Assembly (NCBI GenBank): GCA_902798385.1
Contig: CADBWK010000015.1
Coordinates: forward strand, 1-37,646
Reading direction: 5' to 3'
Source of the DNA: an uncultured Bacteroidales bacterium
GTDB taxonomy: Bacteria > Bacteroidota > Bacteroidia > Bacteroidales > Paludibacteraceae
DNA: 37,646 bases
The notes below the pieces were generated by a model. The model worked only from the letters and a program-made list of their open reading frames with translations, was not told the DNA's origin and did no database searches. A program made the translations under genes and the position numbers. The first letter of the stretch is position 1. Each line of letters opens with the position of its first letter. This document shows positions 12,602 through 17,530 of the stretch, in pieces.

Positions 12602-13027
12602 TTATTGATTTTGTCGTTTGGATTTGAGTTCTTGCATAATCATTGTACGAACGAAGGCATCGAAACGTTTGTAGCGTTTCTTGGTGCCATTTGGTAGTGT
12701 GACAGCAAAGGGATCCGGTTTGGAACCTCGGGTAGCAGTCAATTGTGCCGTAAAGCGTTGCTGCCAGTATTCGTATAGTTTGGGATCGTTAAGGGCTTTG
12801 TCGGCTATTTGTGAGGCTTCTTTGAAGAGTTGTTGGTTAACTTTTTCTTCGCCTTTCGCCGGTTTTTGCTTCCAGTTACGGGGATGAAGGACATCGTATG
12901 TTTCCTGAACACCGAGTCCGATAATACGTCCGCGGGCGTCACGAAAACGTTTGACACGATGGATATGTCCGGGCGATGTAGCGCCGTTTACTTCTTCTAT
13001 TCCGGGAGTAAGTTTCTCTCTTGCCAT
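12602..13027 (-). CDS. Small basic protein of unknown function
   Basis: 141 residues, Lys/Arg-rich and without signal peptide or membrane helix; I do not recognise the family. An N-terminal stretch with Gly and basic residues (HIHRVKRFRDARGRIIGLG) is followed by a helical middle (KLYEYWQQRFTAQLTA) and a basic tail (KRYKRFDAFVRTMIMQELK). The composition would suit nucleic-acid or ribosome binding, but this is inference. It resembles in style small proteins found in Bacteroidota mobile regions. The start ATG (13025-13027) lies about 160 bases below a good promoter; the long leader contains an 11-bp tandem array. It is the first gene of an operon with the metallopeptidase lipoprotein. Confidence 0.7.
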   Translation of the reverse strand: MAREKLTPGIEEVNGATSPGHIHRVKRFRDARGRIIGLGVQETYDVLHPRNWKQKPAKGEEKVNQQLFKEASQIADKALNDPKLYEYWQQRFTAQLTATRGSKPDPFAVTLPNGTKKRYKRFDAFVRTMIMQELKSKRQNQ

Positions 13028-13081
13028 AACTGATTGATTTTAAGGTACTTATAAGTATTTGCTTTTGCGTAGGCTGTTGCG

Positions 13082-13125
13082 AATCACGCACTAATCACAC
13101 AATAATCACGCATTAATCACCCAAT
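13082..13125. repeat. Four tandem 11-bp repeats in a leader
   Basis: The units are AATCACGCACT, AATCACACAAT, AATCACGCATT and AATCACCCAAT. An inverted partial copy (CGTGATTTGTG) lies at 13164-13174. The array is between the promoter at 13196-13227 and the start codon at 13027, so it is transcribed as part of the leader. Small hairpins also occur there (GCCCT/AGGGC at 13140-13156, GGTT/AACC at 13174-13184). Confidence 0.85.
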
Positions 13126-13195
13126 ATACATCCGGTGCAGCCCTGATTTTTAGGGCGTTCGGGCGTGATTTGTGGTTGGGAACCATTTCCGGGTG

Positions 13196-13227
13196 CAAAG
13201 GTACAAAAAAGATTTGGAATATGCAAA
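13196..13227 (-). promoter_or_regulatory. Promoter for the small basic protein / metallopeptidase operon
   Basis: Minus strand: TTTG (13227-13224) and TACCTTTG (13203-13196), with the spacer containing CATATTCCAAAT and a T run. Nearly the same sequence recurs at 14500-14531. It predicts a leader of about 160 bases. Confidence 0.75.
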
Positions 13228-13261
13228 TTTTGTTGCAGAAAAGTTTGGAAATGAACGAAGG

Positions 13262-13298
13262 TGAAAAGGAAGCGCGAAACTTTTGTGGTCTCGCGCTT
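13262..13298 (-). terminator. Hairpin terminator of the FISUMP-like lipoprotein gene
   Basis: AAGCGCGA (13270-13277) and TCGCGCTT (13291-13298) form a perfect 8-bp stem with a 13-base loop. On the minus strand it is followed by a short T-containing stretch (plus-strand AAAAGG at 13264-13269). The U-tract is weak, so termination efficiency is uncertain. Confidence 0.6.
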
Positions 13299-13332
13299 GC
13301 GGTAATGGAGTATGGAGGTAGTTGTTATATTC

Positions 13333-14253
13333 TTATTTGATATCCCTTACTAAGCGGACAGCACGTCCATAGCGTCTATCATATGATGGATCATCGAAAA
13401 ATGTCAATGAACTTTCATTAAATCTCATATACCATCTATATGTAGATGACCAATAATGGCCTTCATAGTAATCTAAACCAATATTACTTTTAACATAAAC
13501 TATATTGTCATCTGGATTAGTTCCTCTATCACCTGTCCCTGGCAAAAACACAGCTCCCGCCTTCTCCATTTTCTTCCATTCGGCTTCTGTATAAGAGTTG
13601 TGATTGTAATTGTCATTTCGGCTATTGTGATAATCAGGATCCATTCCCTTTTCGGTACTTGCATTAAATGTAAGTCCTTCTGGAGTAGTCCATGCATCTG
13701 GAAGTAAAATCACTCCTTCAACATTGTATACTTTACCTAGGCCAAATAACGTAGACGCATTTGGACGTCCCTTAAATATATACTGCCATTCACTATTCGT
13801 CAGTGTGCGCCATAAGCCTGCTTCATTACCGCCATTACTGATTTTATTATAAACACCCCAATCGTAATCAGTACCGGTAATATCTTTATCACCATCGCCA
13901 TAGCCATACCCGTTACTATTATATTTTGTTTTATCTGGTGTCATCCCTGTTCCCCATCCAAACAAATCCATCCATCCGCTATAAGAACTTATATTAACAT
14001 CACCATTCGCATAGCCAATCTTGTCATATTGATGTTCTGCAAAACGGCAGGTCTTGGTGCTTTTTTGATACTGAAAGTTACCAATGGAAAAATGCACTTT
14101 TAAGCTTGGGCTAACAGAAAATACACCTGTTAACTCTCCCTCAATCGTAGCGGGGCTTGTCGCGGAAGAATCACCATTTTCATTAGGAGCGTTCTTGTCT
14201 GTGCATGCTAGCATTCCTAATGCTGCGATTGCAAAAATAAATAACTTTTTCAT
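13333..14253 (-). CDS. FISUMP-like (formylglycine-generating-enzyme-fold) lipoprotein
   Basis: A 306-residue surface or periplasmic lipoprotein (MKKLFIFAIAALGMLAC, lipidated C17). The sequence order KVHFSIGNFQYQ, CRFAEHQYDKIG, GWMDLFGWGTG, GGNEAGLWRTLTNSEWQYIF, VILLPDAW, EKAGAVFLPGTG, YWSST and YGRAVRLVRD matches the large Bacteroidales family related to TIGR02145 (Fibrobacter major paralogous domain), with a C-type-lectin/sulfatase-modifying-like fold. Its function is unknown; such proteins are usually surface-exposed paralogues. The coding sequence is visibly more AT-rich (many Asn, Tyr, Lys codons) than its neighbours, suggesting transfer or relaxed selection. A promoter lies 250 bases upstream, and the intervening leader contains a large inverted repeat. 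Confidence 0.8.
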   Translation of the reverse strand: MKKLFIFAIAALGMLACTDKNAPNENGDSSATSPATIEGELTGVFSVSPSLKVHFSIGNFQYQKSTKTCRFAEHQYDKIGYANGDVNISSYSGWMDLFGWGTGMTPDKTKYNSNGYGYGDGDKDITGTDYDWGVYNKISNGGNEAGLWRTLTNSEWQYIFKGRPNASTLFGLGKVYNVEGVILLPDAWTTPEGLTFNASTEKGMDPDYHNSRNDNYNHNSYTEAEWKKMEKAGAVFLPGTGDRGTNPDDNIVYVKSNIGLDYYEGHYWSSTYRWYMRFNESSLTFFDDPSYDRRYGRAVRLVRDIK

Positions 14254-14311
14254 TTTGCTTTTATTAATTAGTTAGATATACACAAAAAACGTGAACTTTT
14301 GTTCGCATCCT

Positions 14312-14440
14312 TTGAGTTTTGAGGTCTTCGACTACCTTGTGAATCAAATTCTACGCAAAAGCCCACGCCGATGGCGCGAGCGCATAGGCTTTGCTTGATT
14401 CACATAGAATTTTTGAAAGTGTCGAAGTTTCAAAACTCAA
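14312..14440. repeat. Large imperfect inverted repeat (129 bp) in the leader of the FISUMP-like gene
   Basis: Paired arms: TTGAGTTTTGA (14312-14322) with TCAAAACTCAA (14430-14440); CTTCGAC (14326-14332) with GTCGAAG (14421-14427); TGTGAATCAA (14338-14347) with TTGATTCACA (14395-14404); GCAAAAGCC (14355-14363) with GGCTTTGC (14387-14394). The apex is CGCC-GAT-GGCG (14366-14376). About 36 pairs with asymmetric bulges. It is either a structured RNA leader or a small inverted-repeat element; there is no ORF. A smaller hairpin, GGCACA-TAAG-TGTGCC, lies at 14465-14480. Confidence 0.85.
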
Positions 14441-14499
14441 GTTCTGCTTATAACGCTATCAAATGGCACATAAGTGTGCCCATTATTTCAATACGGCTG

Positions 14500-14531
14500 C
14501 AAAGGTACAAAAAATATTTGGAATATGCAAA
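14500..14531 (-). promoter_or_regulatory. Promoter for the FISUMP-like lipoprotein gene
   Basis: Minus strand: TTTG (14531-14528) and TACCTTTG (14507-14500), almost identical in sequence to the promoter at 13196-13227. It predicts a leader of about 240 bases that includes the large inverted repeat. Confidence 0.7.
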
Positions 14532-14827
14532 TAAATCAGCGAAATTTGCATGAACCAGCATAGAATTGTGGGAAAAGAACGAAGATATCATCCCCTACTA
14601 ATAAACAAAAAACAGCCTCACCACCGGAGGTACTTGCCGGAATACACTCGCATTGAGACCGAAGCGGGCGGGGCGGTGTTTTCTATCCGCCAAGATTGGA
14701 CGGATGCAAGAGAAAACGCCGAACGCGAGGGCGAACATGGCGCGGTGGAGGATAAGGAGAAGGAGCGCCGGCGAAGCGGTAATCCGCCTACACCGCGAGC
14801 CTAAAAAAGAAGAAAATCGCACGCGGG
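14532..14827. other. GC-rich structured intergenic segment without a credible gene
   Basis: This stretch contains nested inverted repeats: GGCG (14672-14675) with CGCC (14717-14720), TTTTCT (14679-14684) with AGAAAA (14711-14716), ATCCG (14685-14689) with CGGAT (14701-14705), and CCAA-GA-TTGG (14690-14699). A second structure pairs CGCGGTG (14741-14747) with CACCGCG (14791-14797) around GCGG-TAAT-CCGC. The short ORFs crossing it are highly charged and look like artefacts of base composition. I see no tRNA or known RNA. Confidence 0.6.
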
Positions 14828-14859
14828 CTTGCGTATATGAAAAATAAGTTGTACCTTTG
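14828..14859 (+). promoter_or_regulatory. Promoter for the RAYT-like transposase gene
   Basis: CTTG (14828-14831) and TACCTTTG (14852-14859) have the same spacing as other promoters here. The predicted start near 14865 gives a leader of about 80 bases containing a GCGGT/ACCGC hairpin at its very 5' end and the REP-like hairpin at 14887. A nine-codon ORF (14937-14966) overlaps the transposase start. Confidence 0.7.
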
Positions 14860-14886
14860 CGGTCGGAAAGAACCGCGGATGGATGG

Positions 14887-14918
14887 CCGGAATGGTATTC
14901 CGGATAATAAACGAAGCC
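14887..14918 (+). repeat. REP-like hairpin-tail element, copy 1
   Basis: Stem CCGGAAT, loop GGT, stem ATTCCGG (14887-14903), directly followed by the tail ATAATAAACGAAGCC (14904-14918). It lies in the leader of the transposase gene. A second copy with the same geometry, identical tail and a differently paired stem lies inside that gene at 15309-15340. Confidence 0.85.
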
Positions 14919-14946
14919 CAAAACTATAATACAAGAATGAACAAGC

Positions 14947-15915
14947 ATGGCAGAGAACGACAATAATAAATGGCATTGGCAGGAACGGGGAACGGCATGG
15001 AAAGGCGTGGGGATTTATCACGTGACGTTGGTCGTGCCGAGTCGTGAGCCGTTGTTGGGGGAGCTCATTATTCCGGAGGATGATCCGAGGAAAGCCTATG
15101 TAAAGAGGACGGAGATGGGGGAGGAAATAGTCCATACTATCTTCCATATACAGGATATCCATCCTGAAGTCCGCGTCCTGCAATTCTGCATTATGCCGGA
15201 TCATGTACATGTCATACTACATGTGATACAGGCAATGACCGCTGGTATCAAAACGGTAGTGCGTGGGTGGTGGCAAGGAGCGAAAAAAGTATCCGCTTCG
15301 TCCGTTGACTCGAATACTATTCGAGATAATAAACGAAGCCTATCTCCTATTTTGACTGAGTTGCCATTCATTCGCCCGATGTCTCGCAAAGGCCAACTTC
15401 AGACGATGATTCGCTATGTGCAGATGAATCCGGAGCGGTTGGCGACTAAGCGGTTGATGCCGGAGTATTTCCGGGTACAGGAGGGGATAGAGATAGCTGG
15501 GCGGATGTACTGCGGGGTGGGGAATGCAGACTTGCTGCAAAGGGAGAAATATATGCCGGTTCATGTACGTTGGACAATGGTAGATGAGGCGGAGCACGGA
15601 GATAATAAGCGGCTACGCGATTATATGAACGGCTGTGTTTTGGCGGCGAGAAATGGGGCTGTGATGGTTTCGCCGTTTATTAGCAAGCAAGAACAGGCGG
15701 TAATGGAGGTGCTATTGAAAGAAGGTTTGCCGTTCATCTATATAGCCGATAATGGATTTCGGGATTATTACAAACCGCAAGACAGTTTGTTTGATGCGGT
15801 TGCAAGAAAGCAGGTGCTCATCTTGAGCCCTTGGGAGTATGACCCGGACAAGAAACATGTTAGCCGTGCGGAATGTGTGGAAATGAATAAAATGGCGGAA
15901 GAAATATGCGCTTAG
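14947..15915 (+). CDS. HUH (Y1) transposase of the IS200-like / REP-associated type
   Basis: A 322-residue protein with an N-terminal Y1 transposase domain: YHVTLVVPSREPLLGE, the HUH metal-binding pair in MPDHVHVIL (H86 and H88), WWQGAKK, then RKGQLQTMIRYVQMNPERL with the likely nucleophile Y157. The C-terminal half (about 200-322) is a Bacteroidota-specific extension (VSPFISKQEQAVMEVLL, YIADNGF, LILSPWEYD) of unknown role. HUH enzymes cut single-stranded hairpin DNA through a 5'-phosphotyrosine. No IS ends or second transposon gene are visible, so it looks like a domesticated, REP-associated single-copy type. Residues about 121-131 are encoded by a hairpin-tail repeat. The overlapping nine-codon ORF at the start is a possible translational control. 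Confidence 0.88.
   Translation: MAENDNNKWHWQERGTAWKGVGIYHVTLVVPSREPLLGELIIPEDDPRKAYVKRTEMGEEIVHTIFHIQDIHPEVRVLQFCIMPDHVHVILHVIQAMTAGIKTVVRGWWQGAKKVSASSVDSNTIRDNKRSLSPILTELPFIRPMSRKGQLQTMIRYVQMNPERLATKRLMPEYFRVQEGIEIAGRMYCGVGNADLLQREKYMPVHVRWTMVDEAEHGDNKRLRDYMNGCVLAARNGAVMVSPFISKQEQAVMEVLLKEGLPFIYIADNGFRDYYKPQDSLFDAVARKQVLILSPWEYDPDKKHVSRAECVEMNKMAEEICA
15309..15340 (+). repeat. REP-like hairpin-tail element, copy 2 (inside the transposase gene)
   Basis: Stem CTCGAAT, loop ACT, stem ATTCGAG (15309-15325), followed by ATAATAAACGAAGCC (15326-15340). Relative to copy 1 both arms change together, so pairing is preserved. An additional outer helix GCTTCGT (15295-15301) with ACGAAGC (15333-15339) can form here. 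It is in frame and encodes a loop between the HUH and Tyr motifs. Confidence 0.85.
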
Positions 15916-15956
15916 CGCGCGCCAGATCGCGCAAAAGCGAAAAAAATCGCGAAAAG

Positions 15957-15999
15957 AATGGCATATGCTTGCATATGTCATTTTTTTTGTGTAATTTTG
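15957..15999 (+). promoter_or_regulatory. Fused terminator (transposase) and promoter (proS)
   Basis: The hairpin AATGGCATATGC/GCATATGTCATT (15957-15982) with an eight-T tract forms an intrinsic terminator for the transposase gene. The apical CTTG (15968-15971) is the -33 box, the T tract is the spacer, and TAATTTTG (15992-15999) is the -7 box of the proS promoter. The minus-strand module at 37142-37187 has the same plan. Confidence 0.75.
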
Positions 16000-16039
16000 C
16001 GGCGCATTTTATGTGAAGCATTAAAAGAATACAAAATAT

Positions 16040-17530
16040 ATGGCAAGTTTTCAGAAGTTGACTCCTCGTGGAGAGGATTATTCGAAGTGGTACAATGAGT
16101 TGGTGGTAAAAGCCGACTTGGCAGAGCAGAGTGCCGTTCGTGGTTGTATGGTGATCAAACCTTATGGTTATGCCATTTGGGAGACCATTCAGGCAGAGTT
16201 AGACCGTCGTTTTAAGGCGCAGGGTGTGAAGAACGCTTATTTCCCGTTGTTGATTCCGAAATCGTTCTTGAGCCGTGAGGCTGAGCACGTGGAGGGTTTT
16301 GCGAAAGAGTGTGCGGTGGTAACCCATCACCGTCTGATGAACGACCCGAACGGAAAGGGTGTGATCGTGGATCCGCAGGCAAAACTGGAGGAAGAGTTGA
16401 TCATCCGTCCGACCTCGGAGACGATCATCTGGAGTACCTACAAGAACTGGATCTCGTCCTATCGCGATCTGCCGATTCTGTGCAACCAGTGGTGTAATGT
16501 AATGCGTTGGGAGATGCGCACGCGTCTGTTCCTGCGCACTGCCGAGTTCCTCTGGCAAGAAGGTCACACGGCACATGCCACGAAGGAGGAGGCAGAGGAT
16601 TATGCCCGTCAGATGTTGGACGTGTATGCAGATTTTGCTGAGAACGTGATGGCTATTCCGGTGGTAAAGGGCGTGAAGAGTCCGAACGAGCGTTTCGCGG
16701 GTGCGTTGAATACCTATTGTATCGAGGCGATGATGCAAGACGGCAAGGCGCTGCAAGCCGGAACGAGCCACTTCCTGGGTCAGAACTTCGCGAAGAGCTT
16801 TGACGTGCAGTTCTTGAGCAAGGAGAATAAATACGAGTATGTTTGGGCAACCAGCTGGGGTGTTTCGACACGTCTGATGGGTGCGCTGATCATGACGCAC
16901 TCGGATGATAACGGTCTGGTACTGCCTCCGCACTTGGCTCCGATTCAGGTGGTTATCGTGCCGATCTTCAAGAAAGAGGAAGATTTGGCGAAACTGATGG
17001 AGAAACTGAATCCGATTGCCGATCAGATGAAAGCGCTCGGTATCCGCGTGAAGGTAGATACCGACGAGAAATACACGCCGGGTTATAAGTTCGCGGACTA
17101 TGAGTTGAAGGGTGTACCTGTTCGTTTGGCCATGGGCGGCCGTGATCTGGAGAACAACACGATCGAGATCGCACGCCGCGACACGCAGAGCAAAGAGACC
17201 ATTTCGCTCGATGGCATCGTAGAAAAAGTACAAGCCCTGTTGGAGGAGATCCAGAAGAACCTGTTGACGAAGGCTCTGGATTTCCGCATCGCCAACACGC
17301 GCGAGGTGAACAGCTACGAGGAGTTCAAAGAGGAAGTGAAGAAAGGCGGATTCATCCTGGCACATTGGGACGGCACGGCAGAGACCGAGCAGAAGATCAA
17401 AGACGAGACCAAGGCAACTATCCGTTGTATCCCGTCGATCGAACTGCCGGGACACAAGAACGAGCCGGGTAAGTGCATGGTGACGGGCAAACCGTCCGCA
17501 GGCCGCGTGATCTTTGCGCTCAGTTACTAA
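16040..17530 (+). CDS. proS: Prolyl-tRNA synthetase (eukaryote/archaea-like type)
   Basis: Charges tRNA-Pro. It has 496 residues, the short ProS form without the bacterial editing insertion. Class II signatures are [15 protein letters not shown] (motif 1 region), [18 protein letters not shown] followed by [33 protein letters not shown] (motif 2), and [26 protein letters not shown] (motif 3). The anticodon-binding domain runs from about residue 310, followed by the C-terminal zinc-domain-like end [26 protein letters not shown]. It starts at ATG 16040, about 35 bases below its promoter, and leads the nine-gene plus-strand cluster. Confidence 0.97.

Follow-up and report, generated by a model that had tools for sequence, protein, structure and literature searches.

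The stretch analyzed here (the window) is a complete contig of 37,646 nucleotides (nt) (G000:C15; GenBank CADBWK010000015.1) from the draft genome of an uncultured gut Bacteroidales bacterium of the family Paludibacteraceae (1.92 Mb, 74% complete). It contains an open reading frame (ORF) of 322 codons (14947-15915, plus strand) that, judging from weak profile matches and a predicted fold, encodes a RAYT-like HUH/Y1 transposase with a DprA-like C-terminal domain, together with two small elements resembling repetitive extragenic palindromic (REP) sequences. The upstream element (14887-14918, plus strand), identified by reading the sequence and by a covariance model, has a single foot and consists of a hairpin (CCGGAAT-GGT-ATTCCGG, 14887-14903) followed by a tail (14904-14918). 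A second hairpin (CTCGAAT-ACT-ATTCGAG, 15309-15325) is followed by the same tail (15326-15340). The two 32-bp elements described in the original prediction, each a 7-3-7 hairpin with an identical tail and spaced 422 nt apart, were thereby confirmed. That prediction had also assigned both copies to one gene, which holds for the second, inside the ORF, but not for the first, which ends 28 nt 5' of it.

The sequence to the left of the in-gene stem mirrors the tail to its right (9 of 14 positions identical), and the in-gene element is therefore a palindrome of 45 bp with two feet (15295-15339, plus strand): GCTTCGTCCGTTGA / CTCGAAT ACT ATTCGAG / ATAATAAACGAAGC. It is laid out as a 14-nt foot, a 7-bp stem, a 3-nt loop, the other arm of the stem, and a second 14-nt foot, and it occupies codons 117 to 131, in frame, downstream of the HUH motif and ahead of the putative catalytic tyrosine. 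The covariance model (R1) was trained on 39 of 51 non-redundant elements lying outside the aligned coding span of the genes and selected by eye; the window's own elements were left out, and five elements from the same genome and two from locus L042 were included. Within the window it matched both elements (E values of 1.1e-7 and 1.8e-7), the second at 15308-15340 on the plus strand; a third match, on the minus strand, covers the left foot of the in-gene element (15294-15326; E = 4.1e-7). Only these three half-elements fell below 1e-6, the next-best match having an E value of 0.015. The tail occurs just twice in the window even when three mismatches are allowed, but because shuffling predicts 0.91 occurrences at that tolerance, the tail alone is weak evidence. 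The canonical REP mark, GT[AG]G within 0 to 2 nt 5' of the stem, is absent from both strands of both window elements.

Two motifs expected of a RAYT are found in the protein. The pattern [DN]HxH is present as DHVH at residues 85 to 88 (15199-15210, plus strand), with both histidines, H86 and H88, unchanged across 18 aligned proteins, and Y---NP is present as YVQMNP, which contains the putative catalytic residue Tyr157 (15415-15417, plus strand); Y157, N161, and P162 are likewise invariant in 18 proteins. For the W-Q/E motif, with which the E. coli enzyme (W94 Q95) reads the GTAG guide, a candidate WQ lies at residues 109 and 110, inside the helix spanning residues 101 to 118. The position 21 residues before the tyrosine, which is the W94-to-Y115 spacing of the E. 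coli enzyme, holds L136 and T137 (usually F-T), matched by spacing only. The profile match to Y1_Tnp was weak (17.5 bits, cut-off 23), and that to NCBIfam NF047646 (REP_Tyr_transpos) did not reach its threshold (30.3 bits, cut-off 80). As in other RAYT genes, cognate elements that are dispersed in the genome flank the gene. In the structure model, a linker (residues 119 to 140; 15301-15366, plus strand) runs from the helix at 101 to 118 to a strand at 141 to 144, and its residues 119 to 132 have predicted local distance difference test (pLDDT) scores below 50. Homologues with E values of at most 1e-20 were found in 36 of 200 genomes of the family, the source genome included.

The elements belong to a family of short palindromes with many copies and a conserved tag at one end, as is typical of REPs. 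R1 returned 42 matches in the source genome (E ≤ 0.01), spread well beyond this locus. In that total the in-gene element is counted on both strands, and some matches are present by construction because the training set included elements from the same genome and L042 near-copies. The conserved foot of the family is AAYRRACGRAG, and the feet in this genome include ACGAAG, ACAAAG, ACATAG, ACGGAG, and ACGATG/ACGACG. Since the foot varies among copies, counting exact tails proved misleading as a genome-wide test of the family and was replaced by a stem pattern, a foot pattern, and the covariance model. At up to two mismatches the tail gave nine matches, two of them exact, compared with six for a reversed-pattern control; six of the other seven lacked a 7-3-7 hairpin, and the last (C17:19944) has one with a single mispair and was also recovered by R1.

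Across the genus, 27 of 35 genomes contained the stem pattern CCGAATNNNATTCGG, the largest number of copies in one genome being 22, against 0 to 1 for the reversed control; at two mismatches it was noisy in the source genome (88 versus 37 for the control). We also used a foot probe that demands no stem beyond AT-NNN-AT and so does not select for pairing. All four next bases were paired at 23 of 29 inspected sites in the genus (3 of 6 in the source genome, 14 of 16 in G193, and 6 of 7 in G189), compared with none of 14 outside it. The sites inspected were 6 of 9 in the source genome (the window's three being excluded), 16 of 20 in G193, 7 of 13 in G189, and 14 of 15 in other genera. As plain counts, this loose foot pattern only partly distinguished the genus from other genera. 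Viral contigs gave no pattern match. Element number went with the enzyme: at least eight model matches were found in 24 of 26 genus genomes with a homologue and in 3 of 9 without one (P = 0.0012 by Fisher's test and 0.0004 by a rank test; 35 genomes, relatedness uncorrected). These per-genome model counts are lower bounds, with 35 first-look candidates scored per genome. Outside the genus they did not exceed 7 per genome, except in G009 (15), which has full-length homologues.

To characterize the in-gene element, we compared 52 loci whose long matches reach 43% identity or more. Removing near-duplicates (L048, L049, and L057, the window gene's own paralogue and a 98.9% duplicate of L042) left 49 genes, the window gene among them. 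Hairpins beginning CCCGATG, a coding palindrome in several genes, were excluded, and in L020 a CCCGAAT hairpin was selected manually in preference to an unrelated hairpin of greater length. A hairpin with a 3-nt loop and a stem of at least 6 bp is present in the HUH-Tyr linker of 45 of the 49 genes; the others are L022, where an insertion of about 22 nt in the 3' arm splits the element, and L023, L026, and L062. Stems of at least 7 bp occurred in 42 of 47 genes, whereas 2.48 were expected when each codon was redrawn from the same gene's own synonymous codons. Because elements were selected by pairing, only the variety of pair types is informative, not the paired fraction. Several stem positions vary with both bases changed together (position 5: A-T 38, C-G 3, G-C 3, T-A 1; position 6: A-T 40, C-G 5), in line with the earlier claim that pairing rather than sequence is conserved.

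The reading frame of the element also varies: of the 45 genes, 26 carry it in frame 0, 18 in frame 1, and one in frame 2. On a gene tree built without the linker, eight frame changes are needed, at least five of them forced by the starred branches. It is therefore the DNA element, and not a peptide, that recurs. For the same reason we rejected the idea that the element encodes a loop of the protein that reads it. Copies also occur at the ends of genes. In 14 of 37 usable loci the best-matching flanking copy starts before the stop codon and thus forms a second copy at the gene's end; the one in L012 (for example, ...TLSLAPESDSGTNNKE) repeats the linker peptide of L012. In L040 and L041 the in-gene foot stands in three in-frame copies at 24-nt steps (gene offset 379-440), and L071 contains duplicated units. 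More distant relatives differ. In five from genus g27 (L031 and L033 to L036; about 30% identity), hairpins such as GCGGGAAT-NNN-ATTCCCGC flank the gene and the linker holds no copy. A 32%-identical relative, L075 (G087:C11), has a repeat array of another type within 400 nt upstream (CCCGCAT GCG ATGCGGG GGAGTTTGACAC) and an in-gene hairpin with a related foot, AAGTTTAACAC, at gene offset 346.

In-gene feet resemble the flanking hairpins of their own locus more than those of other loci (9.08 versus 7.47 of 12; standard deviation [SD] = 0.19), and none of 10,000 permutations matched as well (37 of 45 loci, gene-end copies included). A first version of the test without gene-end copies gave 8.25 versus 7.03 (0 of 10,000; 32 loci). 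The left and right feet within one element likewise agree beyond chance (7.51 versus 6.70; SD = 0.16; 0 of 10,000). Foot similarity tracked the N-terminal half of the protein when the C-terminal half was controlled for (partial correlation of 0.199; 0 of 1,000), and the converse relationship was not clear (0.103; 106 of 1,000). In statistical terms, then, the linker slot has been repeatedly refilled or re-framed, with a foot that tends to match the gene's other copies.

Comparison of flanks provides some history for the locus. The upstream element, the gene, and a downstream spacer (14861-16033) are absent from G202, whose proS is approximately 92 to 93% identical and where the left flank (14644-14860) is followed by a short spacer and then proS. 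The gene now sits between proS and what we take to be the older proS promoter of the Bacteroidota type. In G167 a longer stretch, 12602-15968, is missing (loci in this comparison, L154 and L153). From its sequence, the window gene appears to combine two lineages as a mosaic (15087-15910), changing over at about 15440-15447. Over 60-nt windows between 15087 and about 15440, L040, L041, and L043 (60 to 86%), which share its foot and frame, are mostly nearer to it than its own paralogue L057 (46 to 71%), whose foot is ACAAAG. From about 15447 it is mostly nearer L057 and L042 (76 to 95%), except at 15607-15666, where L043 is nearer. The protein gives the same picture, its N-terminal part being nearest L041, L043, and L040 (74 to 75%) and its C-terminal part nearest L042 and L050 (89 to 90%). 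A recombination point inside the element was rejected, as the switch lies about 100 nt downstream.

The C-terminal domain, which had been singled out as unusual, is predicted to have a Rossmann-type fold like that of DprA and ShosA (residues 175 to 322; 15469-15912, plus strand), and in the model the resemblance extends over residues 172 to 322. Against PF02481 (DprA), none of 18 proteins gave a match with E ≤ 1. The C-terminal half had weak matches to GlpE sulfurtransferase (E = 0.088) and to adenylyl-sulfate kinase (E = 0.012), the latter being the only PDB match reported by phmmer. Among 296 genomes sampled evenly over the Bacteroidota, the domain was found in the source genome alone, using a profile of close relatives that may miss distant ones. 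The source genome also encodes an ordinary DprA (G000:C12:42104-42715). Among the papers listed by searches of an open-access library, none links RAYT or HUH transposases with DprA. DprA loads RecA.

The elements are dispersed, and one copy lies in frame between the HUH and Tyr halves of the gene, in a linker predicted to be disordered. As a whole, the evidence is probably best explained by a REPtron-like locus, in which a RAYT-type HUH nuclease is paired with a cognate small palindromic element, and the interpretation first proposed for this DNA is supported as largely right. By analogy with its family, the most likely substrate of the protein is a single-stranded copy of the element, bound as a short hairpin together with its foot, and nicking would take place nearby through Tyr157. 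More speculatively, HUH nicking of single-stranded DNA and a subsequent step of strand invasion or gene conversion may spread the copies, and the DprA-like domain, if the predicted fold is correct, could hold the single strand or recruit RecA. The in-gene copy may be tolerated and continually homogenized, and it might give the enzyme a site of action in its own gene as well. A bolder version, which we consider unlikely, is that in a Bacteroidales lineage an HUH nuclease specific for REPs became joined to a DprA-like module that handles single strands and loads RecA. REPs would then spread by nick-and-recombine copying rather than by classical transposition, and the in-frame REP would be the enzyme's own target, keeping the families matched and letting the HUH and Tyr/DprA halves reshuffle.

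Several observations weigh against these interpretations. Three of the nine genus genomes without a detected gene (G138, G165, and G171) hold 11 to 26 elements, the enzyme having been lost or having gone undetected at the homologue threshold of E ≤ 1e-20, and two of the 26 with the gene show just 1 and 3 elements. In L017, L047, and L064 the wrong hairpin may have been chosen, and L064 is the sole frame-2 case. Members of the genus are related, so locus counts are not independent events. Concordance of the stem with the flanks was weak at first (199 of 10,000) and became significant only with gene-end copies (1 of 10,000). The mosaic switch lies 3' of the element and not within it, and two of the preceding 60-nt windows are ties (15167-15266). 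For the C-terminal domain, hhalign against 18 DprA proteins gave a probability of 0.5%, with no sequence homology to DprA detected, and none of the HMM libraries searched names the domain.

Quite possibly, the in-gene element is nothing more than a selfish insertion tolerated in a flexible linker, comparable to Rickettsia palindromic elements or to REPs in other genes, and its constancy stems from repeated insertion and recombination between copies. The main difference from the REPtron-like reading is that the in-gene copy is denied any role for the enzyme. This would fit the frame switches on the tree, the tandem foot duplications in L040 and L041, the duplicated units in L071, the second copies at the 3' ends of genes, and a linker that is predicted to be disordered. 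In-gene REPs have also been judged perhaps of little impact on the protein, in the parts of one study that treat them (PMC6006769). However, an unbroken stem is retained at about one place in nearly all of the genes, and the five g27 relatives have flanking copies only, which together indicate that the slot is preferred or maintained in this clade. It is improbable that the hairpin acts as an mRNA structure regulating translation or transcription of the transposase. The stem is present in the coding strand, and parts of two studies ascribe to REPs effects on mRNA stability, termination, and translation (PMC3733652, PMC6006769), but the feet are symmetric and resemble the dispersed genomic copies, and no Rfam family reached its gathering score within 14600-16060. 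Quite improbable, too, is an IS200/IS605-like insertion sequence with the hairpins as its ends. The stretch missing from G202 between conserved flanks would suit such an element, and the end test has one empty site with a left edge at about 14860; yet the covariance model found no downstream copy in the window, and the number and position of flanking copies differ among loci. Finally, that the palindrome is a by-product of a conserved linker peptide is hardly credible: although PNxIRxN recurs in frame 0, the synonymous-reshuffling result already contradicts this explanation, and the same element occurs in different frames and outside genes.

An in-gene REP is not new in kind. In-frame and double-foot REPs have been described for subclass 2.4 of TnpAREP/RAYT (Quentin et al. 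2018; PMC6006769), where, according to the portion of that work on this subclass, the gene has REPs on its flanks and also, in frame, within its own sequence, for the most part between HuH and Y as here; the double-foot form is one of its two REP types, and the subclass is found in Bacteroidetes among others. In the same portion, subclass 2.4 REPs are GT[AG]G-footed, the insertion falls between beta3 and alphaC, and the description includes no DprA-like C-terminal domain. The elements studied here instead have a 7- to 8-bp stem with a 3-nt loop and a foot without GT[AG]G. In the structure model their insertion follows the helix at 101 to 118, itself following the HUH strand, and precedes the strand at 141 to 144, which we read as alphaC and beta4. 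Subclass 2.6, found mostly in Bacteroidetes, shares atypical REPs without GT[AG]G and extra residues between alphaC and beta4, apparently the same place; its median length is 179 residues, compared with 322 here, and the section describing it mentions neither in-gene REPs nor a long C-terminal domain (PMC6006769). The E. coli REPtron (TnpAREP, 4er8, with REP/BIME) has the same HUH core fold, element-enzyme pairing, and dispersed palindromes. It differs in its GTAG foot and long bulged stem, as given in parts of two sources (PMC6006769, PMC8266576), and in its chain of 165 residues without a comparable second domain. DprA and ShosA (4ljl, 3uqz, 8zva) resemble residues 172 to 322 in predicted fold, but the window domain is fused to an HUH nuclease and has no detectable sequence homology to them. 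CGTC-tagged REPs and Rickettsia palindromic elements (Di Nocera et al. 2013; PMC3733652) are also small palindromes, some within other genes and some in Bacteroidetes. On the other strand the family foot has the form CTTCGTCCATT, which contains CGTC. In the text of that paper, those REPs have mostly 4- to 5-nt loops, a terminal CGTC tag, and no dedicated transposase; kinship is only a lead.

What sets the present family apart from subclass 2.4 is the foot without GT[AG]G, the 7- to 8-bp stem with a 3-nt loop, the insertion point, the occurrence of the element, in switching frames, in 45 of 49 genes, and the putative DprA-like fusion; the foot, the insertion point, and the fusion make it a new variant. 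As every such gene includes its own repeat, one can read off gene by gene which enzyme goes with which repeat, and this provides dozens of natural pairs with differing feet (ACGAAG, ACAAAG, ACATAG, ACGGAG, ACGTTG, and others) for working out recognition. According to one study, REPtrons do not travel together as one unit (PMC6006769). The locus offers a testable idea of how repeats spread; confirmation of the DprA-like fusion would suggest that copying proceeds through recombination. Two further features of the dispersed copies concern the unit that is copied. In G193 and G189, several copies are preceded, by eye, by a second hairpin, CGGCTC-NNNN-GAGCCG (L104, L108, L109, L127, L128, and L130), and the mobile unit may therefore be a two-hairpin element. 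In the source genome, two pairs of copies have common flanks beyond the element (L205 to L207 and L210; G000:C18:114 with C25:7832, and G000:C25:9221 with C22:23595), so that longer repeats may carry some copies.
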